Assembly (NCBI RefSeq): GCF_021731785.1 | Contig: NZ_JAKFWS010000012.1 | Span: 62,001 to 126,000 of the forward strand | Direction of reading: 5' to 3' | Length of the DNA: 64,000 bases | From: Methylocystis sp. | Lineage (GTDB): Bacteria; Pseudomonadota; Alphaproteobacteria; Rhizobiales; Beijerinckiaceae | Shown here: positions 2,354 through 59,981 of the stretch, piece by piece | How the letters are laid out: each line of letters opens with the position of its first letter | Numbering within the stretch: the first letter of the stretch is position 1 | Translations under genes and position numbers: made by a program | The notes under the pieces: model-generated | Databases searched by the model: none | The model's input: the letters and a program-made list of their open reading frames with translations, nothing else | What the model was told of the DNA's origin: nothing

Positions 2354-3114
2354 ACGCGCTCGCGTCGACATCGCGTGAAGGGGTCGCGGCGCTCGGGGCG
2401 CTGATCGGAGTCGGTCTCGGCCCCGGCGATCCGGAGCTTGTGACCGTCAAGGCCGCGCGCCTCATCGGCACCGCCAAAGTCGTCGCCTTTTTCGCCAAGC
2501 GCGGACGCGAAAGCCACGCGCGCGCGATCGCCGCGCCCTATCTCGCGCCGGGGTGCCAAGAGATTGCGCTGCTCTATCCGGTGACGACGGAGATTCCTTT
2601 CGATCAGCCGGAATATGTCTCGTCGCTTCAGCGCTTCTATGAAGATTGCGTGATGCGCATTCGGGCCGAGCTTGAAGCCGGTCGCGACGTAACGCTGCTC
2701 TGCGAAGGCGATCCGCTGCTCTACGGCTCCTTCATGCATATGTTCGCGCGGCTTGACGCGCGCTTTCGTATCGAGATTTGCGCTGGCGTGTCTGGCATGT
2801 CGGGATGTTTCGCCGCGGCGCGCCAGCCGATGGCCTGGGGCGACGACATTCTCACCGTTCTGCCGGCGACGCTCGACGAAGACAGACTTGCGTCCCGCCT
2901 CGCCGAAACCGACGCCGCGGTGGTGATGAAGCTTGGCGGCAATTTCGCCAAGCTGCGTCGCGCCATGACTCGCGCCGGCGTCATCGATCGCGCAATCTAT
3001 GTCGAACGCGGCGCGATGCCGGGCGAGAAGATCATGCGCTTCGTCGACAAGCGCGACGACGAAGCGCCCTATTTCTCGATGGCGCTGGTGCCCGGGCGAG
3101 GCCGGCGCCCTTGA
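2350..3114 (+). CDS. cobI: Precorrin-2 C20-methyltransferase CobI
   Basis: CobI is a SAM-dependent class III methyltransferase that methylates precorrin-2 at C20 to give precorrin-3A. The 254-residue product starts with the family glycine loop GVGLGPGDPELVTVKAARLI, has CEGDPLLYGSF (the GDP-type SAM loop) and the C-terminal VYVERG-like stretch IYVERGAMPGEKIM. Size is typical. It is coupled to cobH upstream by ATGA and to cobJ downstream by TTGA at 3111-3114. Together with CobJ, CobL and CobM it supplies four of the methyltransferases of the pathway. Confidence 0.94.
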   Translation: MNALASTSREGVAALGALIGVGLGPGDPELVTVKAARLIGTAKVVAFFAKRGRESHARAIAAPYLAPGCQEIALLYPVTTEIPFDQPEYVSSLQRFYEDCVMRIRAELEAGRDVTLLCEGDPLLYGSFMHMFARLDARFRIEICAGVSGMSGCFAAARQPMAWGDDILTVLPATLDEDRLASRLAETDAAVVMKLGGNFAKLRRAMTRAGVIDRAIYVERGAMPGEKIMRFVDKRDDEAPYFSMALVPGRGRRP

Positions 3115-3863
3115 GCGGCGCGCTTTACATTGTCGGCTTGGGTCCGGCCGGCGCGCGCTGGTTGACTCACGAGGCGCAGGCGGCGCTCGACGAGGCGCAG
3201 GATATTATCGGCTATGCGCCCTACGTCGCGCGCGTGCCGGAGCGCGCAGGGCAGACGCGACTTGCAAGCGACAACCGCGTCGAAATTGATCGTGCCCAAG
3301 AGGCGCTGGCGCGCGCCGCGCAGGGCCGCCGCGTGGCCGTCGTTTCTGGCGGCGACCCCGGCGTCTTCGCGATGGCGGCGGCGGTGTTCGAAGCAGTCGA
3401 TGGCGGACCGCGCCAATGGCGCGATCTCGACATTCACGTAATTCCCGGCGTGTCGGCGATGCAGGCGGCGGCGGCGCGGCTCGGCGCCCCGCTCGGCCAT
3501 GACTTTTGCGCGATCTCGCTGTCCGACAATCTCAAGCCGTGGGAAGTCATCGCCAAGCGGCTCGAACATGCGGCGCAGGGCGATTTCGTCATCGCGCTTT
3601 ACAATCCGGCGTCGCGCGCGCGGCCGACCCGCATCACTGACGCCTTCGCGCTGCTGCGTCGTCATCTTCCCGGCGAGACTTTTGTCGGTCTCGCAAAATC
3701 CGTCGGCCGCGAAAATGAGGAAATCATCCTGACGCGGCTCGACGAAGCCGAGGGCGACAAGGTCGACATGTCGACGCTCGTCGTCATCGGCGCCAGCGGC
3801 ACGCGCCGCATTGCCCGCGAGGGCGCGCGCGACTGGGTCTATACGTCGCGGAAAGCGACATGA
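3111..3863 (+). CDS. cobJ: Precorrin-3B C17-methyltransferase CobJ
   Basis: CobJ methylates precorrin-3B at C17 and contracts the ring to precorrin-4. The product begins LYIVGLGPAGARWLT, followed by IGYAPYVARV, VVSGGDPGVFAMA, VIPGVSAMQAAAARLGAPLGH and ALYNPASRARP, all hallmarks of the family. The open frame runs back to 2778, but that extension lies inside cobI and shows no family similarity. The start is TTG at 3111, overlapping the cobI TGA. That gives 250 residues, the normal size. The gene following directly is cobL; cobK, which often sits here in other alphaproteobacteria, is missing. Confidence 0.92.
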   Translation: MSGALYIVGLGPAGARWLTHEAQAALDEAQDIIGYAPYVARVPERAGQTRLASDNRVEIDRAQEALARAAQGRRVAVVSGGDPGVFAMAAAVFEAVDGGPRQWRDLDIHVIPGVSAMQAAAARLGAPLGHDFCAISLSDNLKPWEVIAKRLEHAAQGDFVIALYNPASRARPTRITDAFALLRRHLPGETFVGLAKSVGRENEEIILTRLDEAEGDKVDMSTLVVIGASGTRRIAREGARDWVYTSRKAT

Positions 3864-5062
3864 GCGCGCCGTGGCTGTCGCTGATCGGGCTGGGCGAAGA
3901 CGGCGCCGACGCGCTGACGCCGGCGGCGCGCGCGCTCGTCGCCCAGGCCTCGTTGATCGTCGGCGGCGCCCGCCATCTCGCGATGATCGAAGCGCCCGCC
4001 GAGCGCCTGCAGTGGCCCTCGCCGCTGACCGACGCCATCCCGCGCATCCTTGCGCAGCGCGGCAGACCGACGGTCGTTCTCGCCTCGGGCGATCCTTTTT
4101 TCTACGGCGTCGGCAATCTCATCGGACGCCATGTCGCACGCGACGAGATTTTCTGCGTTCCGGCGCCATCGGCGTTTTCGCTCGCCGCCGCGCGGCTCAA
4201 ATGGAGCCAGCAGGATTGCGCTCTGCTTTCGTTGCACGGCCGCGCGTTTGAGCGGGTGACGCCGCATTTGCAGCCGCGCGCACGAATTATCGCGCTCTCC
4301 TGGGACGAGTCGACGCCTGCGCGCCTTGCCCGCCATCTCGTCGAGCGCGGCATGGGCGGATCGCGCCTCTATGTGCTCGAGCGGCTCGGCGGCGCGGAGG
4401 AGCGGGTGCGCGACGCGCGCGCCGACGCATTCGCGCTCAATGACATTGCGCCGCTCAACACGGTCGCCCTTGAAGTGGAAGCCGACGGAGACGCGGCGGT
4501 CATTCCGCTTGCGCCGGGCTTGCCCGACGATTGGTTCGAGCATGACGGGCAGCTCACCAAGCGCGACATCCGCGCCGTGACGCTCTCGGCGCTCGCGCCG
4601 CGCAAAGGCGAAGTGCTGTGGGACATCGGCGCCGGCGCGGGCTCCATCGCCATCGAATGGATGTTGAGCGATATCTCATGCCGCGCCATCGCCATCGAGC
4701 GCGACGCCGCTCGCGCCGCGCGCATTACGCGCAACGCGCTGTCACTCGGCGTTCCGGATCTCAGCGTCGTCATTGGCGAAGCGCCGCAGGCGCTCGCCGA
4801 ACTCGAGACGCCGCAGGCGATCTTCATCGGCGGCGGCGGCGACGAAGCGACGCTCGCCGCAGCCTGGAGTGCCCTGCCCCGTTTTGGGCGCATCGTCGTC
4901 AACGCCGTGACGATCGAGACGCAAGCGCTCCTCACCGACGCTTATCGCGAGAAAGGCGGCGAGTTGTTGCATCTGCAGTTTGCGCATGGGCGTCCGATCG
5001 GCCGCTTTCATGCGCTCGATCCGGCAATGGCGGTGACGCAATGGCGAGCGACAAAAAGATGA
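3860..5062 (+). CDS. cobL: Precorrin-6Y C5,15-methyltransferase (decarboxylating) CobL
   Basis: CobL is a natural fusion of CbiE-like and CbiT-like domains. It methylates C5 and C15 of dihydro-precorrin-6 and removes the acetate carboxyl at C12, giving precorrin-8X. Residues about 1-200 form the CbiE part (SLIGLGEDGADALTPAA, VVLASGDPFFYGVG). Residues about 220-400 form the CbiT part, with the SAM-binding loop LWDIGAGAGSIAIEWM and FIGGGGDEATLAAAW. The 400-residue length is normal for the fusion. ATGA overlaps join it to cobJ before and cobE after. Confidence 0.94.
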   Translation: MSAPWLSLIGLGEDGADALTPAARALVAQASLIVGGARHLAMIEAPAERLQWPSPLTDAIPRILAQRGRPTVVLASGDPFFYGVGNLIGRHVARDEIFCVPAPSAFSLAAARLKWSQQDCALLSLHGRAFERVTPHLQPRARIIALSWDESTPARLARHLVERGMGGSRLYVLERLGGAEERVRDARADAFALNDIAPLNTVALEVEADGDAAVIPLAPGLPDDWFEHDGQLTKRDIRAVTLSALAPRKGEVLWDIGAGAGSIAIEWMLSDISCRAIAIERDAARAARITRNALSLGVPDLSVVIGEAPQALAELETPQAIFIGGGGDEATLAAAWSALPRFGRIVVNAVTIETQALLTDAYREKGGELLHLQFAHGRPIGRFHALDPAMAVTQWRATKR

Positions 5063-6218: not shown

Positions 6219-7627
6219 ATACGCCCGGACTGCTGATCGGCGCGGCCCGCTCCTCATCGGGCAAGACGACGCTGACGCTCGGCCTGATGCGCGCGCTAAG
6301 GCGCCGCGGCTTGCGCGTCGCGCCGGTCAAATGCGGACCGGACTATATCGATCCAGCCTTTCACGCGGCGGCGACCGGCCGCGCCGGCGTCAATCTCGAT
6401 TCGTGGGCGATGGATGCTGATGTGATCGCTGGTCTCGCGGCGCGGGCGAGCGCGGGCGCCGACATCGTGATCGCTGAAGGCGCGATGGGGCTCTTCGACG
6501 GCGCGCCCGGCGGGGCGGCGGGAATCGGCGCCAGCGCCGACATCGCCGCCTTGCTCGGCTGGCCGGTCGTACTTGTTCATGACGTTTCCGGCCAAGGTCA
6601 AACGGCGGCGGCGATTGTCCGCGGGATCGCTGGACACGACGCGCGCGTAAAGGTCGCTGGCGTCGTGTTGAATCGCGTCGGCTCGGAGCGCCATCGCAAA
6701 CTCGCCGGCGAGGCGATCGAGGCGCTTGGCATTCGCGTGCTTGGCGCGCTGCCTCGCGACGAGAATATGGCGCTGCCCGAACGCCATCTCGGCCTGATCC
6801 AAGCGGGCGAAACGCCGGAGCTTGATGCGCGTCTCGACGCCCTCGCCGATTTCGTCGAAGCGCATGTGGATGTGGAGGCGATTGTCGCTTGCGCGACTTT
6901 CGCCGCAACAGGCGATGTCATTCCCGACGCTTCGAGCAAGCGAAGCGATCGGGAATCCAGCATGACGCCAGCGGCGCCTGTCGCGGCTCTGGATTCCCGA
7001 TCGCCCGCTTCGCGGGCGTCGGGAATGACAAGCGTCGTGGCGACTCCGCCGCCCGCGCAGCGGATCGCGATCGCGCGCGACGACGCCTTTTCCTTCTTCT
7101 ATCCGCATCTCGCGCAGAACTGGCGCGAGGCGGGGGCGGAACTCTATTTCTTTTCGCCGCTCGCCGATGAGGCGCCGCCCAGCGATTGCGATCTTTGCTG
7201 GCTGCCGGGCGGCTATCCGGAGCTGCACGCCGGCCGGCTGTCGGCGGCGCGAGTCTTCATGAATGGGTTGCGGCGTTTTGCTGACGGACGGTGGGTTCAC
7301 GGCGAGTGCGGCGGCTATATGGTACTCGGCCGCTCGCTGACCGACGCTTCGGGCGAAGAGCATGAAATGGCGGGACTGCTCGAACTGGAAACGAGCTTCG
7401 CCAAGCGCAAGCTCCATCTGGGCTATCGCCACGCCGAATTGGCGGCGGACCACCCCTTAGGAGCGGCCGGCTTGCCCCTTCGCGGGCATGAATTTCACTA
7501 TGCGACGATCCTGCGCGAAGAGGGCGCGCCATTCGCTCTGGCGCGCGACGCCTATAGCGACGACGCGCGCCCCGCCGGTCTGGCGCGCAACGGCGTTTCC
7601 GGCTCTTTTTTCCATCTGATGGCATAA
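6215..7627 (+). CDS. cobB: Cobyrinate/hydrogenobyrinate a,c-diamide synthase CobB, with an in-frame repeat insertion
   Basis: CobB uses ATP and glutamine to amidate the a and c side chains of hydrogenobyrinic acid. The N-terminal CbiA domain carries the P-loop [17 protein letters not shown] and [12 protein letters not shown]; the C-terminal type-3 glutamine amidotransferase domain carries the nucleophile cysteine in [11 protein letters not shown] and ends with RGHEFHY and GSFFHLMA. The start is GTG at 6215, overlapping the cobM stop. Residues about 235-272, in the linker between the two domains, are encoded by a large palindromic repeat (separate entry); the stretch is Ser/Arg/Ala-rich and unlike the family. 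The frame is kept, so the enzyme is probably functional. This is the last gene of the operon. Confidence 0.94.
6917..7029. repeat. Palindromic (REP/RPE-like) element inside cobB
   Basis: The outer arms GTCATTCCCGACGC (6917-6930) and GCGTCGGGAATGAC (7016-7029) are perfect reverse complements. The inner arms GATCGGGAATCCAG (6947-6960) and CTGGATTCCCGATC (6989-7002) are also perfect reverse complements. Each half folds on itself as well, with small hairpins at TTCGAGCAAGCGAAG and CCCGCTTCGCGGG. The element therefore forms a double hairpin or one long cruciform. It is read through in frame as part of CobB. I saw no second copy in the window and no clear target duplication. Confidence 0.85.
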
Positions 7628-7630
7628 AAA

Positions 7631-7655
7631 GGGCCGCCGGACGAACCAGCGGCCC
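7631..7655. terminator. Hairpin after cobB
   Basis: GGGCCGC (7631-7637) and GCGGCCC (7649-7655) form a 7-bp GC stem four bases after the cobB stop codon. On the plus strand no T-run follows, so it would be an incomplete terminator for the cob operon. On the minus strand it is followed by TTTTT and could act as a second terminator for the gene at 7865-9112. Confidence 0.45.
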
Positions 7656-7792
7656 AAGTCAAGGGAGGAAACGCCCAAGGAGGGCTACGAAGCGAGACAG
7701 CTCTCGCTGCGTTGCGCTGTTATATTGCTGCGCCGCACAAGCGTCAAGATTTTTTTGACACGGAAAAGCTTCAGCCAGGTCGGGCCCGCCGC

Positions 7793-7823
7793 TAAAAAGA
7801 AAACCGCACCGGAGGCGCGGTTT
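7793..7823 (-). terminator. Rho-independent terminator of the L,D-transpeptidase gene
   Basis: Read on the minus strand, AAACCGC and GCGGTTT form a stem around a CGCCTCCG-type loop, followed by TCTTTTT. It begins about 40 bases past the stop codon of the gene ending at 7865 and fits a simple intrinsic terminator. Confidence 0.65.
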
Positions 7824-7864
7824 CAAGTTTGCTCGAACGCATTGAAATTTTAAGCGGATTTGCC

Positions 7865-9112
7865 CTAATGCGCGGCTGCCGATCTCCTGACGCCAATTGA
7901 GGCGGGCGGCATAGGGATATCGCTCGCCGATGCGTCCCTATGCGGGCGCAACCATTTTTTCACGCTATTGGTCGGGCTCGGGTCTGAAGCGGCGAGCGCG
8001 GACATATCATTTCGGTCGCCATGCGCCGTCGCCATCGCCATGACGCGCACGGCGTGCCGGCTGTCGTCGACGGCCTTCGCCGCCGCCAAGATCGCGACCG
8101 GCGGTTTGGCGGCAGGCGCGGCCGCCGTTTTCCCGACGCTTCGGCTTGGTTTCTCGTCGAGGACGATTTCGGTCGGCGGGAGGATCGTCTCCGGCCGGCT
8201 GACCTCGGAGACTCGCGACGCAAAGCTCGGATGCTGGCCGCCATCCTGGTAAACGACCCGCACCGGCCTCACGCCGTTTTGTGCGAGTTCGGCGACCTTA
8301 GCCTCGTCCTGCGCGCGCTTCTCGGCCACCGCCTGAGCGATCTGTGGATCCTGCTTCAGCGGCGGGCAGACGGCGTTGGGATCGAGATGCGCGGCGCCGT
8401 CCGCGTTGAACACATAGCGCCGGTTGCAAAAGGCGACCTGCGGCTCCTGCAGGGTCACCTCGAAATGGTCGGAGCCTTCCTTAAGCTGCTTCCAGAAATC
8501 GATATTGGGATCGAGACGATGCTTGGCGAGATTTTCCGCCGTCATCTTAAAGGGGAAGGACTGCATCTGGATTGCGCGCTGGCCGCCGGCGAGCGAGGAG
8601 CGAGCGACGGCGTAGATTTCGGCGATCTGATTGTCGGTCATGGAAAAGCAGCCGGCCGACGAGCAGGCGCCATGCACCATGATGTCGCCGCCTGTGTGCC
8701 CCAGGGCGCGGTCGAGCGCGTTCGGATAGCCGACGTTGAACGACAGATAATAGTTCGAATTCGGATTCATCTGCGCCGGGCCGATCGAATAAAAGCCCTC
8801 GGGCGCCTGGCGATCGCCCTGTTGGCGCTTGGGTCCAAGCTGGCCAGACCAGCGGCACATCGGATAGGTCTTAAGATGGACATAGCGGCCATCGGACCGC
8901 ATCTTCCAGATTTCGAGTTCCGCCTCCTTCTTGTAGGCGCGGATGAGCATCGGCGCTTCCTTGGTCGTGCCGACCCGTTCCATCAAGGCGACGGTCTCGG
9001 AGGGGATCGGCGCGAGCGAGCGATGCGCCAGACCGCTTTGATTGCAGCCCGAAAGCGCGAGGCCGGCCAAAGCGGCAAGCCCGAGAGCCGGCGCTATGCC
9101 ATGAAATTTCAT
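7865..9112 (-). CDS. YafK-like L,D-transpeptidase family lipoprotein
   Basis: The protein is an envelope murein L,D-transpeptidase-fold (YkuD/YafK) protein, probably crosslinking or editing peptidoglycan. The catalytic motif is visible as MVHGACSSAGCFSM, with the conserved His and the Cys nucleophile. I place the start at the internal Met beginning MKFHGIAPALGLAALAGLALSGC, a lipoprotein signal with lipobox LSGC; GGGGACAGG lies just ahead as ribosome binding site. The open frame extends 37 codons further upstream without a signal sequence. The last 150 residues are Ala/Pro/Ser/Arg-rich, low complexity and probably disordered. It lies downstream of accA on the same strand. The substrate is not known. 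Confidence 0.82.
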   Translation of the reverse strand: MKFHGIAPALGLAALAGLALSGCNQSGLAHRSLAPIPSETVALMERVGTTKEAPMLIRAYKKEAELEIWKMRSDGRYVHLKTYPMCRWSGQLGPKRQQGDRQAPEGFYSIGPAQMNPNSNYYLSFNVGYPNALDRALGHTGGDIMVHGACSSAGCFSMTDNQIAEIYAVARSSLAGGQRAIQMQSFPFKMTAENLAKHRLDPNIDFWKQLKEGSDHFEVTLQEPQVAFCNRRYVFNADGAAHLDPNAVCPPLKQDPQIAQAVAEKRAQDEAKVAELAQNGVRPVRVVYQDGGQHPSFASRVSEVSRPETILPPTEIVLDEKPSRSVGKTAAAPAAKPPVAILAAAKAVDDSRHAVRVMAMATAHGDRNDMSALAASDPSPTNSVKKWLRPHRDASASDIPMPPASIGVRRSAAAH

Positions 9113-51714: not shown

Positions 51715-52920
51715 ATGTCCGCCGACGCCCCGCCGCGCAGGCCGCTCAAACCCGCGACGCAACTCGTGCATGGCGGGACGCAGCGCTCTTCATTCGGCGA
51801 GCTGTCGGAGGCGCTCTACCTCACGCAGAGCTTCGTCTATCCGACGATGGAGGCGGCCGAGGCGCGCTTCAAGGGCGACGAGCCGGGCTTCATCTATTCG
51901 CGGTTTTCGAACCCGACCGTGGCGATGTTCGAGCAGCGCATGTGCCTTTTGGAGGGCGCCGACGCCGCCCGCGCCACGGCGAGCGGCATGGCGGCGGTGA
52001 CCGCAAGCCTGCTCGCCCAGCTCAAGGCGGGCGACCATGTGGTTTCGGCGCGCGCGCTTTTCGGCTCCTGCCTCTATGTCGTCGAGGACCTGCTGCCGCG
52101 GCTGGGAATCCCTTCGACGCTCGTAGACGGGGCCGACCTCCAACAATGGAAGGCGGCCGTCCGTCCTGAAACGAAGCTGTTCTTTCTCGAAAGCCCGACC
52201 AACCCGGGCCTTGAGGTCTATGACCTCAAGGCGATCGCCGACATTGCGCATGAGGCCGGCGCAAAGCTCGTCGTCGACAATGTCTTCGCGACGCCGCTGT
52301 TGCAGAAGCCCTTCGACTTCGGCGCCGACGTCGTCGTCTATTCGGCAACCAAGCACATCGACGGCCAAGGCCGGTGTCTTGGCGGCGTGATTTTGGCCTC
52401 GCAGGCGCTGATCGAAGAGAGCGTCCACAATTTTCTGCGCCAGACCGGACCGGCAATGTCGCCGTTCAACGCCTGGGTGATGCTTAAAGGGCTGGAAACC
52501 TTGCCGCTGCGCGTCGCCCAGCAGACCGCAAGCGCCGCTAGGATCGCCGACTTCCTGGCCGAAGAGAAGGCCGTCAGCCGCGTGCTTTATCCGTTCCGCG
52601 CCGATCACCCCCAGGTCGATCTGGCGCGCCGCCAGATGTCGGGGGGCGGCACGCTAGTGAGCTTCGATATGGCGGGCGGCAAGGCCGCCGCCTTCCGCCT
52701 CGCCAATGCGCTCGACGTGATCAAGATTTCAAACAATCTCGGCGACGCGAAAAGCCTCATCACCCACCCGGCGACGACGACCCATCAGCGGCTGACGCCG
52801 GAGGCGCGCGCCGCGCTCGGCATCGGCGACGGTCTGCTGCGTCTTTCGGTGGGTCTCGAGGACGCCGATGATCTCATCGACGATCTCGCGCGGGGGCTTT
52901 GGGCCGCCGCGCGCGCCTGA
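51715..52920 (+). CDS. metZ: O-succinylhomoserine sulfhydrylase
   Basis: MetZ uses PLP to make homocysteine from O-succinylhomoserine and sulfide. The 401-residue product has FIYSRFSNPTVAMFEQR, ATASGMAAVTASLL, FFLESPTNPGLEVYDLKAIA and the PLP lysine in YSATKHIDGQGRCLGG; it ends with SVGLEDADDLIDDLARGL. This is the Cys/Met metabolism PLP family; MetZ rather than MetB or MetC is supported by the SAM-II leader. AGGGAG lies before the ATG. The stop is three bases from the end of a convergent small gene. Confidence 0.92.
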   Translation: MSADAPPRRPLKPATQLVHGGTQRSSFGELSEALYLTQSFVYPTMEAAEARFKGDEPGFIYSRFSNPTVAMFEQRMCLLEGADAARATASGMAAVTASLLAQLKAGDHVVSARALFGSCLYVVEDLLPRLGIPSTLVDGADLQQWKAAVRPETKLFFLESPTNPGLEVYDLKAIADIAHEAGAKLVVDNVFATPLLQKPFDFGADVVVYSATKHIDGQGRCLGGVILASQALIEESVHNFLRQTGPAMSPFNAWVMLKGLETLPLRVAQQTASAARIADFLAEEKAVSRVLYPFRADHPQVDLARRQMSGGGTLVSFDMAGGKAAAFRLANALDVIKISNNLGDAKSLITHPATTTHQRLTPEARAALGIGDGLLRLSVGLEDADDLIDDLARGLWAAARA

Positions 52921-52923
52921 GCA

Positions 52924-53061
52924 TCACCGCGGCGCGCTGGCCCGTCTTTCTTTTCGGACTGGAATTTTCGCTTCCTGCATCGCGCATTCGGCGACGAAGT
53001 AGGATGCGGCGAGTATGGCGCTAAGCGTCTCAAGCACGACGCCGGTGATCAGTTCGTTCAT
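52924..53061 (-). CDS. 45-residue membrane peptide, unknown function
   Basis: A small protein MNELITGVVLETLSAILAAS... with one membrane helix (ITGVVLETLSAILAASYFVA), one cysteine after it (ECAMQEAK) and a basic tail (PVRKERRASAPR). GAGGGCATACTG precedes the ATG. It is the last gene on the minus strand of the DUF2946/TonB-receptor cluster, 113 bases after the third DUF2946 gene. The pattern suggests a small inner-membrane protein with a positive cytoplasmic tail. No family recognised. Confidence 0.5.
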   Translation of the reverse strand: MNELITGVVLETLSAILAASYFVAECAMQEAKIPVRKERRASAPR

Positions 53062-53174
53062 CAGTATGCCCTCGAGAAGCGTTCGCTGCGGAAATGCGAA
53101 AAAATCGACGCGGCGGCCCACGGCGGCGGCGCGAGAAGAGGTTCGACGCCGACGCGAGCCGTTCGCCACACAAG

Positions 53175-53582
53175 CTAAGCCGCCGGCGGCGCGCGCGGGC
53201 GGTGAGCTGGGCTGGGACGGGGCGTCGGCGCGACGCAGTCCGCCACCGTCCGCGCGAGCTTGAAGCTCGGGACGGGCGTCGCGCCGATCGGGCCGGGCCG
53301 CGCCGCAAGAGGCGCAAGACCGCTGCAAAACGCCTGGCAGAGGTTGCAGGCGGAGCGATCGTCTTTGGGGCCCAGCCGCCCCGCAAGCGCGTCGGGTTGG
53401 GAGGACCCCGACGCGAAACAGATAAAGAGTTGAGCGACCAGGCGGCGGCCGACGCCCGATTCGGCGACGCCCCGCGCGAGCGGCGCGACGGCGAAGAGCG
53501 ACGCCGCCAGAAACAGCAGCGTCGCGCCGAACCCGGCGCCCGCGCGAGGCGGCGACGCAAATCTGGACGCCGACGGCGACAT
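53175..53582 (-). CDS. DUF2946-type small cysteine protein (copy C)
   Basis: A 135-residue exported protein with a hydrophobic N-terminal segment (GATLLFLAASLFAVAPLARGVA) and the core CNLCQAFCSGLAPLAAR, the same C-x2-C-Q-x2-C-x-G-x-APLAAR pattern as copy B at 53931. The ends also agree (TVAD...RAPPA). DUF2946 proteins are of unknown function, and often sit near TonB receptors or metal-linked genes. It begins 4 bases after the 76-residue gene, without its own strong ribosome binding site, so is coupled to it. Confidence 0.65.
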   Translation of the reverse strand: MSPSASRFASPPRAGAGFGATLLFLAASLFAVAPLARGVAESGVGRRLVAQLFICFASGSSQPDALAGRLGPKDDRSACNLCQAFCSGLAPLAARPGPIGATPVPSFKLARTVADCVAPTPRPSPAHRPRAPPAA

Positions 53583-53586
53583 CGAT

Positions 53587-53817
53587 TTAGGTCGCGTCGG
53601 TCAAAGGCCGCGAAAATCTCGCGCGGCGTTCGAGGTCGATGAGGCGAATGACGCGCTGGTCATTGCCGCGCCAGAGCGGCGTCGACGGCACGATGGCGGC
53701 GAGCGCCGCCATGCCGGGCGCATGACCCGGCTGCGCGCGCTCGCCCTCGATGAGAGATTCGAGCGTCGCGCCGGCGACGACGCTTTCCTTGCCGCTCGGC
53801 TTACGTTTGCGAAACAT
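53587..53817 (-). CDS. 76-residue protein, unknown function
   Basis: A small basic protein starting MFRKRKPSGKESVVAGATLESLIEG, with no signal or membrane segment. GGGAG lies seven bases before the ATG, which supports expression. The C-terminal half (WRGNDQRVIRLIDLERRARFSRP) is arginine-rich. The open frame extends upstream to 54012 inside copy B, but that part is read in a different frame and is unlikely. It lies between two DUF2946 genes; a cytoplasmic partner is conceivable but unproven. Confidence 0.5.
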   Translation of the reverse strand: MFRKRKPSGKESVVAGATLESLIEGERAQPGHAPGMAALAAIVPSTPLWRGNDQRVIRLIDLERRARFSRPLTDAT

Positions 53818-53930
53818 GGGCTTACTCCCGATCCGCCGCTTTGATGCGGCGTTGTCCTTAAGCTGCGCCCCATGCTGTGCGCGCCCGGAGTCCGGGCTGC
53901 GCGCAAAGCGACGCGACAGTCTGCGAAGGA

Positions 53931-54296
53931 TCAGGAGTTGGCTGGCGGCGCTCGGGCCTGTCTTGAATAATCCAGCGGGGGGGTCGGCAGGGCGCGGTCC
54001 GCCACCGTCCAATCAAGCGCTGTCCATTGGACGGGCGCCTTGCCAAGAAAAATGACGCGCGCGGCAAGCGGCGCAACGCCATCGCAATGGTTTTGACAAA
54101 ACAGACAGACGTCCCGGTGGCCCTTCGCGTGGTCCGGCGCCTGCGATTGGTCGCTCGAGGCGACATCGGTCACGCAAAATTCGCTGAGGAAGTCGCCGGC
54201 GCCCATTCGCGTCGCGACATGCGCCGCCGCAGGCGCGAAGGCCTGAACGGCCAGCGCGAGCGCGAACAGCAGAACTGTCAGCCAGTTGCGACGCAT
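53931..54296 (-). CDS. DUF2946-type small cysteine protein (copy B)
   Basis: A 121-residue protein with signal peptide (WLTVLLFALALAVQAFAPAAAHV) and mature metal-site-like residues: FCVTD, DHAKGHRDVC and CLFCQNHCDGVAPLAAR, then TVADRALPTPP and ARAPPANS at the end. These fit the DUF2946 pattern of paired cysteines and a closing R-[AG]-P-P. It lies 160 bases after the TonB-receptor gene. It is the closest relative of copy C. Confidence 0.75.
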   Translation of the reverse strand: MRRNWLTVLLFALALAVQAFAPAAAHVATRMGAGDFLSEFCVTDVASSDQSQAPDHAKGHRDVCLFCQNHCDGVAPLAARVIFLGKAPVQWTALDWTVADRALPTPPLDYSRQARAPPANS

Positions 54297-54456
54297 TAAA
54301 TCTTAAGCCCAGGAGTCGGCGCGCATGCGGAATTCACATGCGCACCACGATGTAAGCAAAAAGCGAGGGCCGCGACAAGTTAATCTTGGAGGCGGCCGGC
54401 GCGCCGCGGCAAAGCGTCTCAGCAGGACGACGGCATTCCCCGATCGTTCTGAAGGT
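54297..54456. other. Gap between TonB-receptor gene and DUF2946 copy B
   Basis: Contains the inverted repeat GCGCATG-N9-CATGCGC (54319-54341). No T-run follows on either strand, so it may be a weak terminator or a dyad operator for copy B. Confidence 0.35.
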
Positions 54457-57138
54457 TCACCTGACCGCAGAAGTCCCTCCGGAACCACCCCGGTCAACCG
54501 TCACGACATCTTCGGGACCGCCGAAGTGGTAATTCAAGGCGATGAAGAACGTTCGCTGCGGATAGGGATTGGGGTTAACATAGGCCTTCCAGCGGCCGAT
54601 GTTATTGACGCCGACAGACAGCCACCAATGCGGCTCAAGCCGGTATCTCGCCTTCATATCGAAAACGAGGATTTCACTGTCCACACTGCCGTAATTGTTA
54701 TGGTTGAAGTCGGTGTTCGCAAAGGTGACGAACGCGGGGGAGGAATATCGCGCGCCGAGCGCGAAGGACATGTCCGGATTGGGCGTGTAGGTCACGACGC
54801 CGCGGAAGCGGATCCGCGGCACACGGGGAAACTGACGACCGCCATAGAGCGCGGAAGGGACTGTCGCCGATAGCGGATTGACGTTGCCGTTCGCCAGCAG
54901 GTAGCGCGCGCCTGTAAAGTCGCCACTCGATAGATTCGTTTGTATTTTCGCGTCAGTGAAGGTGACGCCGCCATTGAAGTCCAAGCCGGGAATGAGAATG
55001 TCCTTCATGTCCGTGACGGCTTCGACGCCGCGGAAGCGCACCTTATCCATATTCGCGTTCTGCGTGACGATGATGCCGGCTCCGTTGATCGCGCTCTGGC
55101 TGACGATGGCGTTCCAGCGATCGTCCATGAAAAGGCTGATGCGCGGGTTGAACAAGCCAATGGCCCCGCGGAAAGCGTCGACCGTTCGATATTCGCCGGT
55201 TAGATCGTAGCAGGTGCAGTTTTCCGGCTGAAGATTGGGATTATTGATGAGCTGCGAACTTGGACCCCTGAGAGCCTGAAACAGCTCGGAGACGGTCGGA
55301 AAACGATAGGCGCGCGCGATCGAGCCGCGTAGTTTGAATTCCGGCGTGAATTGATATTCTAGCGCCGCCTTCGGGGAAAAGGCTCCTTTGTAAGAGTCAG
55401 GAAAATAAGTCACTGCCGCCGGCGCGGGACCTAGCGATACGAGACCTGGAGAAAACTGGCTCGTAACGTTCAAGCCGCCGGTAGAGTTCATCCCGTTAAA
55501 GGCGCGCCACCATTCTCCGCGCCCGCCCGCCGTGAACTTCCAATCCGGCAGCGGCTTCCAGACCTCCTGAACGTAAACGCCCTTAGTCTCGGTCTTGCCC
55601 GTGTTAAACGCTTGAATGCCAAGATAGTAGTTATTTGGCCAGGAAACGGTGCTCGTCTGAAGGGTATTGAGCGAATAGACGTCGCCGTGGGCGCCAAACG
55701 AGACTTCATGCTTGCCGAGCAGGTCGTATGGCACACGCCAGATGGCGCGCGCGTCGCCGGTGCGCCAGTAAGTTCCGCCGTTGTTGGCGTTCAGACCTCT
55801 GGGATCGAAGTTGTATGCTGTGCCGGCGGCGTTGACGCGGGGCCCATACGACTGCGCGCCGTTACTGAAATCGCGCACAAAATTGTACGAGCTGGCTGAC
55901 AGATCGTAGTCGAAGACTCCGCCCGTGTCCTGGCGGAGCTCCAGCCCCTGCATCACATGGCTCGCCGCCCCGTGACTAGGATTGACGCCGCCTGGCGTGA
56001 CGAAGAAAGGCCCCAACTGGATGCGGCCGCTCTGAGTATTGTAAATCGGCATCCCATTCTTGTCGCGAATGAAGCTTTCGACGCTGGTGTCGTTATTTAA
56101 CGACCAGAAGCCGATTTGATATTTCGCGCGGACGAGCGGGGCGACGTCGTACGAAACTTTGACTTTGGCCATGTCGGTCTGGACGTAATCGGCGCCAGCC
56201 GCACCGGTGATCACGCGCGGGACGCCCTCCTGATTGAAATCGACGTGACCGCCAAAAAATCGAGGGTCGTTGCGAGGGGCGGGAGGATTGCCCTGCAACG
56301 GCTGAGGCACGAGAATATTTCCGGGAAAGGTCTGCGTCTGACCTTGGTTGTCCAAATGCTCGTATCCCACCCAATAACGAAAATCGTTAATGCGGTCGCC
56401 GATCAGCACATTTGTCACGCCGCCGAGGTTGAGTTCCTTACGGCTATAAAGGCTGAACGGCTGCACCGCGGCGGTGCCTGACGCATGGATCTCAAAATTG
56501 TCCGGCATCCGCGTCGTCATCGTCAGCACGGCGCCGATTGAATTGCCTGGATACAACGCCGAAAACGGTCCGTACATCACGTCGATGCGGGAGATTTCCT
56601 CCGGCGAGACCATGCCCCACCGTGGCGGAAAATTGAAGCTGTTGCCGAGCAAATTGGAGAGAAGAATTGTGTCGGCATAGACAAGCGTTAGCGCGCTCTG
56701 AATCGTGCCTGAGGTGCGGGTCGAAACGATCGCATTGCGGTCGCCAATATAACGCTCGCGCACCCAGATCGATGGCATGTACCGGAACGCGTCGGCCGAG
56801 GTCATGATATTGGTGGATCGAAGAATCTGCGCCCGCGTCCTGCTCTCGACCACAGCCGGAATATTCGCAGGCAATGTGCGGCTGAACGGCGCGGGCTTGG
56901 GCTCCGCGTAACGATCCGCCGCCCCGGTCCCGGTCCCGGACCCGGTCCCCGGCGTCGGCGTCGCGGTGGTGACGCGTCCCGCTCCGCCGGTCGGGCGACC
57001 CACGGGACCCGGCCGGGGGGCGGCGCGCGCGCCGCCGACGTTGATGGTGGGCAGCGCCTGCTGCGCATCGGCGGCCGAGGCGAACAGGCTGAGTGCGGCG
57101 AAAGAGGCCCCTCCGAGGAGGCAAGAGCGACGAATCAT
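54457..57138 (-). CDS. TonB-dependent outer-membrane receptor
   Basis: An 893-residue receptor. It has a signal peptide (SCLLGGASFAALSLFASAADAQ), a Gly/Pro/Thr-rich linker (TATPTPGTGSGTGTGAADRY), a plug domain (about 100-225: ILRSTNIMTSADAFRYMPSIWVRERYIGDRNA, VSPEEISRIDVMYGPFSALYPGNSIGAVLTMTTRMP) and a long beta-barrel with periodic aromatic strands. AAGGAACATC before ATG 57138 is the ribosome binding site; the frame runs far upstream without sense. The C-terminal aromatic residue is not the last: ALNYHFGG is followed by 19 extra residues (PEDVVTVDRGG...). No FecI/FecR pair is adjacent. DUF2946 neighbours suggest a metal complex as ligand (copper or cobalt), but this is not proven. Confidence 0.93.
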   Translation of the reverse strand: MIRRSCLLGGASFAALSLFASAADAQQALPTINVGGARAAPRPGPVGRPTGGAGRVTTATPTPGTGSGTGTGAADRYAEPKPAPFSRTLPANIPAVVESRTRAQILRSTNIMTSADAFRYMPSIWVRERYIGDRNAIVSTRTSGTIQSALTLVYADTILLSNLLGNSFNFPPRWGMVSPEEISRIDVMYGPFSALYPGNSIGAVLTMTTRMPDNFEIHASGTAAVQPFSLYSRKELNLGGVTNVLIGDRINDFRYWVGYEHLDNQGQTQTFPGNILVPQPLQGNPPAPRNDPRFFGGHVDFNQEGVPRVITGAAGADYVQTDMAKVKVSYDVAPLVRAKYQIGFWSLNNDTSVESFIRDKNGMPIYNTQSGRIQLGPFFVTPGGVNPSHGAASHVMQGLELRQDTGGVFDYDLSASSYNFVRDFSNGAQSYGPRVNAAGTAYNFDPRGLNANNGGTYWRTGDARAIWRVPYDLLGKHEVSFGAHGDVYSLNTLQTSTVSWPNNYYLGIQAFNTGKTETKGVYVQEVWKPLPDWKFTAGGRGEWWRAFNGMNSTGGLNVTSQFSPGLVSLGPAPAAVTYFPDSYKGAFSPKAALEYQFTPEFKLRGSIARAYRFPTVSELFQALRGPSSQLINNPNLQPENCTCYDLTGEYRTVDAFRGAIGLFNPRISLFMDDRWNAIVSQSAINGAGIIVTQNANMDKVRFRGVEAVTDMKDILIPGLDFNGGVTFTDAKIQTNLSSGDFTGARYLLANGNVNPLSATVPSALYGGRQFPRVPRIRFRGVVTYTPNPDMSFALGARYSSPAFVTFANTDFNHNNYGSVDSEILVFDMKARYRLEPHWWLSVGVNNIGRWKAYVNPNPYPQRTFFIALNYHFGGPEDVVTVDRGGSGGTSAVR

Positions 57139-57290
57139 GACGATGTTCCTTGGACGCCGACGCCGGTCGGCAGGACAGGAAGCGGCGCAGCGTTGAAGGC
57201 AACGCGCAGGCGGATGAAAGACGTAGGGGGGCTGCTTAGCGCAGCAGATCGAGGACCGGCGACGCGCTCTTGCGCGCCCAGCGGCCGGCC

Positions 57291-57656
57291 TCAGCCGCGC
57301 GTGAGCGGCGGCGCCCGCGCGCAATGCGCCCGCCACTGTCGCTCGGAGAGCGGCCACTCGGCATATACGGGCGCGTCGAACCGCGCATATTCGCCGAGCG
57401 CGATAACCTCGTCCGAGGTCAGCGAAACCCAGGCCGGCGGCGGTTCGCCGCACAAGAGACACGACTGGCAGTTGTGCCGGTGGCCAGGCTGGTCGTCGGG
57501 CGCAGGCTGCTCCCCTGCGCGCATGTGGTGACACTGGGATGAAAGCGTCGCCTCAGGAGAGATCGAAGCGGCGCGCGCGAGTCCGGCCCCGCCGGCGACG
57601 GTCTGAACGACCATGGCCAGCGCGAGCAGGAGATTGCGAAACGTGGTGAGCCGCAT
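57291..57656 (-). CDS. DUF2946-type small cysteine protein (copy A)
   Basis: A 121-residue protein with signal peptide (TFRNLLLALAMVVQTVAGGAGLARA), a His-rich loop with cysteines (CHHMRAGEQPAPDDQPGHRHNCQSCLLCGEPP), and the end HCARAPPLTRG. The C-x2-C-x2-C core and R-A-P-P end are the DUF2946 hallmarks, though the core differs from copies B and C. Several His and Cys residues could bind a metal. It is the first gene of the minus-strand cluster, 152 bases before the TonB receptor; the frame is open to 57767 upstream but the signal peptide sets the start at 57656. Confidence 0.75.
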   Translation of the reverse strand: MRLTTFRNLLLALAMVVQTVAGGAGLARAASISPEATLSSQCHHMRAGEQPAPDDQPGHRHNCQSCLLCGEPPPAWVSLTSDEVIALGEYARFDAPVYAEWPLSERQWRAHCARAPPLTRG

Positions 57657-57858
57657 TTTGATCCCAGTCAAATCGGAAGGTCTAATATTTACAATTACGC
57701 GCCTCTTGGATAGGCGCGCAGGGCTCGCCGCGCCAAAAAAGCCCGAAGTGTAACATTTGAGTAACAAGTGGTGGATTGGGCTAGTGTCGCGGCCTCCGAC
57801 CGCAGTGCCTAATCAAAGGCGTTTCCCTTTGCTGGCGCCGGCTTTAATCTTGCTCCCC

Positions 57859-58251
57859 ATGTACATCGCCATCACAAGAGACATACAGGTCACGGCGCTT
57901 CCCGACTTTCTGGCGGACCGCTCGGACCCTGATCAGGATCGCTACTTCTGGTCCTACACGATCGAGATCGCCAATCTCGGACGCGTTCGGGTGCAGCTAT
58001 TGTCGCGTCACTGGATCGTCATCGACGCCAATGGCCGCCGCGAGGAAGTGCGCGGGCCGGGCGTCGTCGGCGAACAGCCGGTGCTGGAGCCTGGAGAGAC
58101 GTTTCGCTACGCCTCCGGCTGCCCGCTCGCCACGCCCTCGGGGATGATGCAGGGCAGCTATCGCATGGTCACCGATTCCGGCGAAACCTTCGACGTCGAA
58201 GTGCCCGCTTTCTCGCTCGACAGTCCGCTGTCGCGTCCGACTTTGAATTAG
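57859..58251 (+). CDS. apaG: ApaG (Co2+/Mg2+ efflux-associated protein)
   Basis: A 130-residue ApaG-domain protein: RYFWSYTIEIANLGRVRVQLLSRHWIVIDANGR, VRGPGVVGEQPVLEPGETFRYASGCPL and GMMQGSYRMV are all diagnostic. ATG 57859 gives the family length; the longer frame from 57757 adds 34 unlikely residues. Its role is linked to divalent-cation resistance and dinucleotide metabolism, but the molecular activity is unsettled. argE follows 10 bases later. Confidence 0.95.
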   Translation: MYIAITRDIQVTALPDFLADRSDPDQDRYFWSYTIEIANLGRVRVQLLSRHWIVIDANGRREEVRGPGVVGEQPVLEPGETFRYASGCPLATPSGMMQGSYRMVTDSGETFDVEVPAFSLDSPLSRPTLN

Positions 58252-59527: not shown

Positions 59528-59746
59528 TCAGCAGACCCAATGCCATCGGCCGTACCGCCAGCGCCAGCAGTGGCCGCGGCCATGCCAGCCACCCCCGCCC
59601 CACGGCCCATGCCAACCGCCGCCGTGCCAGCCGTGGCCATGCCAACCGCCATGCCAGCCGTGTCCGTGCCAGTGGCCGGCGGCGGCAGGCGAAGAGGCAA
59701 AGAGCGCTCCCGCGAAAAGCGTGGCGCAAGAAAGTTTCTTCAACAT
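59528..59746 (-). CDS. Exported His/Gly/Trp-rich repeat peptide
   Basis: A 72-residue precursor: signal peptide MLKKLSCATLFAGALFASSPAAA, then a mature part of GHGWHGG-type repeats (HWHGHGWHGGWHGHGWHGGGW) ending GHCWRWRYGRWHWVC with two cysteines. AGGAG lies before the ATG. The histidine density suggests metal binding or a structural surface role; the Trp-His-Gly repeats also recall cell-surface or sulfur-globule-like proteins. The underlying DNA is a short tandem repeat, so the copy number may vary. Not recognised as a named family. Confidence 0.6.
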   Translation of the reverse strand: MLKKLSCATLFAGALFASSPAAAGHWHGHGWHGGWHGHGWHGGGWHGPWGGGGWHGRGHCWRWRYGRWHWVC

Positions 59747-59981
59747 GATGTATCTCCTGACAGAAGGGGGTGCTGTAGGACGCCTCGAACCGACTAAGCT
59801 CACCAGCGGCGAAGGGCGGTGCGGGGCCGCACATTCGGTTGCTCGCGCTTATGTGCGGGGATCGCTGGAAGTCGCCTGCGCGCCATTGCTTTCGTGAAGT
59901 GAGCGGCTATAGTCCGCGCCCGTTCCGGCGCGTCGAAAAACAAATCGCGCCGGGCTTCGAGCCTTTAAAGAGATTTTCGCG

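Follow-up and report, generated by a model that had tools for sequence, protein, structure and literature searches.

Introduction

The closest described counterpart of the locus analyzed here is the CruR (Bp2923)-bfrG/crtA-bp2921 operon of Bordetella pertussis. CruR is a small DUF2946 upstream open reading frame (ORF) whose CxxC motif perceives copper and whose RAPP motif stalls the ribosome; release of the stall allows Rho termination before the receptor gene (PMC9426467). The two motifs are separated by 45 residues, with RAPP 3 residues from the end (PMC9426467), and ribosome stalling at this RAPP has been demonstrated in vitro (PMC12992588). CrtA, the receptor behind CruR, imports chelated copper and is followed by a PepSY_TM gene in >75% of loci (PMC12914433). 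CutF of the Rhodobacter capsulatus CutF-cutO-cutG system is a related alphaproteobacterial leader that works through a stem-loop and whose response is of the opposite sign (PMC9973294). In this study we analyzed a 64-kb stretch of a Methylocystis sp. genome (the window, 64,000 nucleotides (nt) of contig NZ_JAKFWS010000012.1), in which six minus-strand genes form a cluster. Three of them are candidate CruR-type leaders, designated A, B and C, that precede a TonB-dependent receptor, a 76-residue protein (p76) and a 45-residue protein (p45), respectively, and leaders B and C each enclose a conserved 64-nt hairpin.

RAPP-like motifs also stall ribosomes at the C-termini of the arrest peptides ApdA/ApdP and SecM (RAGP), which are tied to protein localization through Sec/YidC (PMC10951233, PMC12992588). 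The leaders described here differ from these in that a CxxC metal motif precedes the RAPP. An original prediction, made from the letters of the window, had viewed the cluster as an undescribed system for import or sensing of a metal complex in which small DUF2946 proteins may carry out periplasmic handling.

Results

All six predicted ORFs are present on the minus strand and their coordinates were confirmed; they run in the order A, receptor, B, p76, C, p45, with gaps of 152, 160, 113, 4 and 113 nt. Leader A (57291..57656, 121 amino acids) reads CQSC-47-RAPP-LTRG to its stop codon, leader B (53931..54296, 121 amino acids) reads CLFC-47-RAPP-ANS and leader C (53175..53582, 135 amino acids) reads CNLC-47-RAPP-AA, the CxxC-to-RAPP distance being exactly 47 residues in each. 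A second, overlapping CxxC in leader A would give a spacing of 44. The motif that the original prediction saw shared by B and C (CLFCQNHCDGVAPLAAR and CNLCQAFCSGLAPLAAR) is correct, as is its observation of RAPP at the ends of all three copies, where 4 (A), 3 (B) and 2 (C) residues follow the motif. No further stop-to-stop frame in the window fits C..C followed by 38–54 residues and an R[AG]PP near the end.

The same spacing is kept by the relatives. A search pattern that requires CxxC and R[AG]PP (RAPP or RGPP) and leaves the spacing free within 38–54 residues collected 69 leader ORFs from the window and from relatives' loci; 67 have a spacing of 47, including 21 of the 21 A-class leaders, and two have 48. 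In all of them R[AG]PP ends 1–6 residues ahead of the stop. Leader classes were assigned by best BLAST match, by which two leaders in the B position (at loci L083 and L090; G, L and C numbers are our handles for genomes, loci and contigs) fell into class C. Pfam recognizes leader B as DUF2946 (PF11162, 33.5 bits against a cut-off of 23.7), and leader C takes the label from its motif, its spacing and its similarity to B.

A long gap to the next gene on the same strand lies behind each leader: 152 nt between A and the receptor (57139..57290), 113 nt between B and p76 (53818..53930) and 113 nt between C and p45 (53062..53174). The first of these gaps holds a bubble of C over G of up to +23% in 78-nt windows, which is matched by 97 of 4000 random stretches of the same length from the window; the bubble at the end of leader B is matched by 139 of 4000. 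The A-receptor unit is thus like the CruR operon in consisting of a small DUF2946-like ORF with CxxC, a C-terminal RAPP and near-fixed spacing before a TonB receptor, with a long gap (162 nt there) and a C-over-G bubble in between. It differs in that B. pertussis has one leader rather than three, a spacing of 45 rather than 47 and a PepSY_TM gene. Among the eight proteins of the cluster region scanned with Pfam we found no PepSY_TM match, and the genes that follow the receptor are B, p76, C and p45. Leaders B and C further differ from CruR in heading unknown small genes and in containing the hairpin. We conclude that leaders A, B and C are best read as members of the CruR/CutF class of copper-sensing nascent-chain leaders, which is already-described biology, and this likeness bears out the earlier view of a metal-linked receptor locus whose Cys-containing small proteins point to metal sensing.

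Could the DUF2946 proteins instead be exported metal-binding proteins, chaperones or sensors, that work with the receptor in the periplasm? Leaders A and B have signal-peptide-like N-termini (by eye), Cys and His are present, and CutF itself was initially taken for a chaperone (PMC9426467). On the other hand, the RAPP position and the 47-residue spacing are fixed while much else varies, the codons that form the hairpin in B and C show little synonymous change (see below), and leader B is kept at loci that have no receptor. CruR moreover is thought to be short-lived, and replacement of its signal peptide left regulation unaffected (PMC9426467). Since copper sensing by upstream ORFs is the role described for this family (PMC9426467, PMC9973294) and the copies here keep both motifs at fixed spacing, the periplasmic handling once suggested for these proteins is unlikely; we regard exported proteins as quite improbable and take the DUF2946 proteins to act as regulators.

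CutF offers a different alternative, in which copper would prolong the stall, unfold a stem-loop and switch the downstream genes on. CutF is alphaproteobacterial and resembles the leaders here in being an exported Cys-containing leader with a C-terminal proline motif and an mRNA stem-loop (PMC9973294); leaders B and C also carry a stem-loop, and the B-p76 gap, when folded as a single sequence, pairs over the start region of p76. The CutF stem-loop, however, is intergenic, lying after the stop codon where it shields the next ribosome-binding site, whereas the hairpin here lies within the ORF, 29 nt before the stall site, and the downstream genes differ. In addition CruR and CutF fall into different sequence clusters (PMC9973294), and leader A precedes a receptor, as CruR does, and not an oxidase. 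We therefore consider a CutF-like sign unlikely and favor the CruR-like one.

The receptor (54457..57138, 893 amino acids) has the plug and barrel domains of TonB-dependent receptors (Pfam PF07715, PF00593), and its named relatives are Methylocystis species and related metagenome-assembled genomes. A sequence search of the PDB matched only PhuR and CntO, the OprC-type family TIGR01778 is absent from its 23 NCBIfam matches at E-values up to 1, and its AlphaFold model is poor (mean predicted local distance difference test score (pLDDT) 44). It is most plausibly a TonB-dependent transporter that leader A places under copper regulation. A different type of receptor stands behind leader A at seven loci, each from another genome (L047, L052, L053, L055, L060, L085, L094; L060 alone was scanned with Pfam); members of this type are 72–99.9% identical to one another and resemble the window's receptor only over the first ∼210 residues. 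Judged by these sequences, the receptor is exchangeable between the same leaders.

The hairpin lies between the CxxC and RAPP codons of leader B (53983..54046, covariance model score 76.8 bits, bulge TGGCGGACC) and of leader C (53224..53287, 78.8 bits, bulge TGGCGGACT). It comprises an outer stem of 12 pairs, an inner stem of at least 6 pairs, a variable loop and a 9-nt bulge on the 3' side, TGGCGGAC[CT] (UGGCGGACY). In every leader measured, 29 nt separate its 3' end from the R codon of RAPP, and hairpin C lies 163 nt upstream of p45. Elements were picked by a seed plus a pairing requirement, and copies missed in this way were later found by the covariance model (e.g. at L047, L050, L053, L054, L085 and L089); after removal of three spurious pattern matches and a repeat locus (L121), 23 of the 27 distinct elements were aligned, four near-identical B elements being omitted. 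Across these 23, pairing is present in 95.9% of cells and 14 of 19 hairpin pairs show double changes, i.e. on both sides. The covariation score is 0.403; shuffled alignments give 0.180, none of 500 attaining the observed value, and slid partners give no more than 0.102. The nested inner stem covaries too.

Because the elements had been picked partly by pairing, we repeated the pairing test with the structure anchored on RAPP, which is free of such selection. At least 14 of 18 pairs formed in 17 of the 27 B-class leaders and 18 of the 21 C-class leaders but in 0 of 21 A-class leaders, and at least 16 pairs in 16 B-class, 17 C-class and no A-class leaders. The hairpin part of the coding sequence also shows 3–7 fold less synonymous change than the part outside. 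In leader B the mean synonymous difference is 0.041 in hairpin codons versus 0.287 in the rest from codon 31, and in leader C it is 0.037 versus 0.125 (12 closely related sequences each; these pairwise values, like the substitution ratios given below, are means or medians over related, non-independent pairs). G-U occurs in 10 pair columns and its mirror case A-C in 2 (P 0.039), which is a weak sign that the hairpin works as RNA on the leader strand. With Rfam release 15 the 4.9-kb cluster (window 52900–57800) gave no family over the gathering threshold, and at E-values up to 5 it gave only two chance-level matches, both of them on the opposite strand and at a distance from the hairpins.

Three results temper this picture. 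With anchor and loop length left free to slide, 14 of the 18 pairs can be found in this GC-rich DNA in 14 of the 21 A-class leaders, 20 of the 27 B-class leaders and 3 of the 21 C-class leaders; in that control 16 pairs are reached in a single copy. The invariance of the bulge is partly built into the seed pattern, and weaker copies vary in it. Finally, 10 of the 27 B-class leaders fall under 14 pairs and no A-class leader has a hairpin at this position, so that the leader mechanism itself can do without the hairpin.

The cluster is flanked by two plus-strand genes, apaG (57757–58251) and a Cys/Met-metabolism pyridoxal phosphate (PLP) gene identified by Pfam (51715–52920), which we take to be metZ and call so for short. 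The order apaG - A - receptor - B - p76 - C - p45 - metZ is seen again in other members of the genus, the laboratory strain M. rosea SV97 (L033) being one carrier of the locus, and the comparison of genomes that had been proposed as a check shows DUF2946-type genes and the receptor together at this locus in much of the genus. A protein search found p76 in 27 of 61 genomes, all within the genus's 37; it is also present in G007, G024, G033 and G034 (by its tail and reading of the locus) and in G332 and G333 (L089, L085), for a total of 33 of 39 genus genomes. Leader B with p76 is thus the most widely kept part of the locus. In G007, G024, G033 and G034 a leader and p76 are present at the locus, with no A, receptor or C by the searches made, and p45 is absent from these genomes at E-values up to 0.1. 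The p45 search, which covered the genus, found p45 in 22 of 39 genomes at E <1e-10 plus one additional weak match, and p45-like ORFs were recognized by eye in G003 and G013 (L056, L057). Where p45 is missing, leader C has lost the stop near RAPP in G025, G031 and G333, its frame overrunning RAPP/RGPP at L053, L055 and L085, as expected of a decaying leader. A search for plasmid copies of the B-C region gave no match.

In G008, G015 and G019 (L086–L088) metZ and apaG lie <100 nt apart with nothing between them. These are small assemblies (1.4–2.1 Mb), two of them only 73–77% complete, with no pmoA match and no hairpin. Across the genus pmoA is present in 30 of the 33 genomes with p76 and the hairpin, and in 1 of the 6 others.

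The covariance model places the hairpin in the same 33 of 39 genus genomes as p76, nearly always only at this locus; the window's own genome holds exactly two copies, those in leaders B and C. Strong copies elsewhere were found in G007 (C1:4414467, L140) and in G035 (C94:3640, L169), the latter inside a leader, together with some weak matches at E-values of 0.03–0.08, one of which (G003, L170, 26.8 bits) has no leader by pattern. At seven loci of six genomes (L056, L057, L083, L084, L090, L093, L140) the hairpin stands outside recognizable leader ORFs. L056 and L057 have no leader C ORF by pattern, and the hairpin precedes the p45-like start by 185 and 161 nt, compared with 152–164 nt where leader C is present; in these two relatives the hairpin is thus independent of leader C. 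At L083, L084, L090 and L093 it lies 3' of p76, outside any recognizable leader. A second unit in G007 (L140:5805–8669) consists of leader B, a short frame with an IDLERRAR tail and then the hairpin, and ends 40 nt before a response regulator and a histidine kinase. Our reading is that the hairpin predates leader C; the alternative is that leader C was lost around a kept hairpin.

These copies bear on the question of whether the hairpin is a DNA element (a mobile palindrome, or a site of recombination or protein binding) or a by-product of leader coding rather than a functional RNA. The outer arms are palindromic, the locus swaps modules, as seen in the two receptor types between the same leaders, and G007 and G035 hold their extra strong copies. 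Yet the few copies per genome sit nearly all at one locus and so do not behave as a spreading repeat, loop length varies while the nested inner stem covaries, and G-U exceeds A-C, if weakly, on the leader strand. Coding constraint alone cannot explain an element that also occurs outside leader ORFs and that shows low synonymous change within them. A DNA element or coding by-product therefore seems to us an improbable account, and we favor an RNA function.

Two further readings of hairpin matches were rejected. Among 397 genomes of the order, five outside the genus had hairpin matches of 31–36 bits under stricter filters; in three of these little more than the palindromic arms is kept, no leader was found by pattern within ∼3 kb of any of the five, and they were treated as chance or unrelated. 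As an abundant repeat the hairpin was likewise dismissed, the seed pattern giving 17 matches versus 9 for the control in the window's genome and the model few strong matches per genome.

Neither p76 (53587..53817) nor p45 (52924..53061) has a match in Pfam or NCBIfam, and p76, p45 and leader C have none in PHROGs. p76 is recognized by its conserved C-terminal tail, IRLIDLERRARF-x-R, of which 11 residues are invariant in 13 rows; the core is I-D/N-LERRAR, and L090 reads RPINLERRARF. Its median ratio of nonsynonymous to synonymous substitution (dN/dS) is 0.18 (12 sequences), and its predicted model (pLDDT 63) has a helix at residues 9–28 and a short helix over the conserved tail. p45 has one hydrophobic stretch resembling a membrane helix (by eye), and E3, E11, C26 and E30 are among the residues invariant in 8 rows of relatives, with Tyr in place of C26 at L031. 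By conservation both small ORFs look like genes, p45 weakly so. Beyond the genus, 11 weak p76 matches in other genera (297 genomes of the order) were treated as chance. The plus-strand ORFs of six of these loci (L065–L070) were read; by eye the best matches seem to overlap an unrelated gene in another frame or on the other strand, and no leader was found among these plus-strand ORFs.

Predicted intrinsic terminators (8 versus 5.6 in shuffles, standard deviation 2.3) and sigma-70 promoters (1 versus 1.1) are not clearly above chance. Elsewhere in the window, at 59528–59803 (minus strand), a 91-amino acid ORF rich in His, Gly and Trp with HGHGWHGG repeats and a signal-like N-terminus is a possible metal binder.

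The genome as a whole holds pmoA and an MbnB gene over the methanobactin cut-off, and these together with the Methylocystis relatives of the receptor identify the host as a methanotroph. Further leaders of the same type were seen in it. On contig C29 (L042:5771–8104) a CruR-like leader, CADC-47-RAPPA before its stop, stands directly before a sigma factor fused in frame to a methanobactin precursor. Next come mbnB (over the MbnB cut-off) and ORFs resembling mbnC, a MATE exporter and a monooxygenase (by eye); NCBIfam includes such a sigma-mbnA fusion (NF040705). This leader could be a post-transcriptional copper input to methanobactin synthesis. Beside it a second, divergent leader (L042:5120–5533, minus strand) heads MbnP-like (3894–5057) and MbnH-like (2719–3951) genes and a TonB receptor (232–2718), all by eye. 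mbnB occurs in 21 of 39 genus genomes. A leader before the methanobactin operon as a general rule was not retained, the motif being in reach in 3 of the 14 mbnB loci read, with a 1.5-kb flank that may be too short.

Contig C25 (L043) carries two divergent CruR-like leaders, at 6975–7352 (minus strand) and 7477–7893 (plus strand), one before a receptor 32% identical to that of the window and one before ExbB and ExbD (Pfam). The original prediction that TonB/ExbB/ExbD genes are lacking thus holds for the cluster but not for the genome, and since leaders precede both at L043, receptor and energizing genes may share one type of copper control. On contig C1 (L044:5355–5759, minus strand) a RAPP-ending, Cys-containing frame precedes a small protein with YDDCGNQVE-like repeats (by eye).

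Another metal, or the redox state, might also be what the leaders sense, as histidine-only clusters of CutF-like proteins accompany nickel/cobalt-type genes (PMC9973294). The copies here, however, carry the Cys motif linked to copper, other leaders of the genome head a methanobactin operon and MbnP/MbnH-like genes (by eye), and the genome holds pmoA. The methane monooxygenase that pmoA stands for is copper-dependent. We consider a signal other than copper very improbable, and the sensed metal is inferred to be copper.

Discussion

We propose, as the likely explanation, that the locus is a copper-starvation operon cluster controlled by three CruR-type leaders, with the hairpin serving as a second input in B and C. 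When copper is scarce, a ribosome translating leader A, B or C would stall at the C-terminal RAPP, and the stalled ribosome would let RNA polymerase proceed into the downstream gene, so that leader A would yield a TonB receptor importing a copper chelate, leader B p76 and leader C p45. Copper bound to the CxxC of the nascent chain would free the stall, and transcription would end ahead of the downstream gene. The hairpin, acting as RNA on the leader strand, is most likely a second input to the same switch. From usual ribosome footprints we estimate that it lies ∼20 nt behind the expected edge of the stalled ribosome, where it could refold beside the C-rich RNA and block trailing ribosomes or Rho, fix the border of the C-rich RNA used by Rho, or bind a factor. 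What the sequences themselves show is the gene content, the motif spacing, the synteny, the covariation, the synonymous constraint and the distribution; stalling at RAPP, copper sensing by CxxC and the part of Rho are carried over from work on homologues. That these copies behave likewise, the ligand, and the roles of p76, p45 and the hairpin are inferred.

Several of our observations do not sit easily with this proposal. Leader A scores just under the DUF2946 cut-off (20.7 versus 23.7 bits) and leader C has no Pfam match, DUF2946 included, so that of the three DUF2946 copies originally named B stands by Pfam, A stays below the cut-off and C stands by likeness to B. The C-over-G bubble at leader C is ordinary (1442 of 4000 random stretches reach the same), the receptor resisted assignment to either the CrtA or the OprC family, and copper is assigned by homology. 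The median dN/dS of p45 (0.54, 11 sequences) lends weak support to a protein, and in G020 leader C keeps RAPP and stop though p45 is missing. At L083, L084 and L090 no gene was seen on the hairpin strand between the hairpin and metZ, which misfits a purely cis role on a next gene. Because the hairpin thus also follows p76 with no gene seen after it, it may function as a factor-binding site or as a small regulatory RNA.

A bolder version of the proposal is that a structured RNA and a metal-sensing arrest peptide have merged: the hairpin, able to occur by itself near p76 or p45, would in this lineage be translated as part of the leader, 29 nt behind the programmed stall, so that nascent chain and RNA would jointly sense or transmit the copper state. 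In a variant, the 9-nt seed UGGCGGACY would belong to a copper-starvation regulatory RNA that acts on other mRNAs with p76 as its partner, a pairing suggested by the occurrence of both in the same 33 of 39 genomes. We hold this idea, in either form, only tentatively, as a possibility that falls short of even chances. If true, the regulatory RNA would be a copper-sparing counterpart of the iron-sparing small RNAs.

Leader A with its receptor is already of a known kind, and to that extent the locus is not the undescribed system it was first taken for. The label holds in part for the hairpin-bearing B-p76 and C-p45 units; what is new is leaders in series, p76, p45 and an RNA structure inside the coding sequence of an arrest peptide. 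We found no description of the three-leader and hairpin arrangement in the literature on DUF2946, CruR, methanobactin and Methylocystis small RNA or copper (including PMC12403871, and drawn mostly from sources other than subscription papers and preprints). DUF2946 is not named in the main texts, supplements aside, of two copper papers on Methylosinus trichosporium (PMC9601215, PMC12811070).

How methanotrophs sense copper, both for the "copper switch" between their two methane monooxygenases and for methanobactin, is a long-standing question. The leaders described here place a nascent-chain, post-transcriptional type of copper sensor before a receptor, two conserved unknown proteins, ExbB/ExbD and, within the present genome, a methanobactin operon, and they provide a testable 64-nt RNA element with clear covariation inside the coding sequence of a putative arrest peptide. 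They also call for caution with DUF2946 proteins annotated as unknown metal proteins, which are probably regulators.

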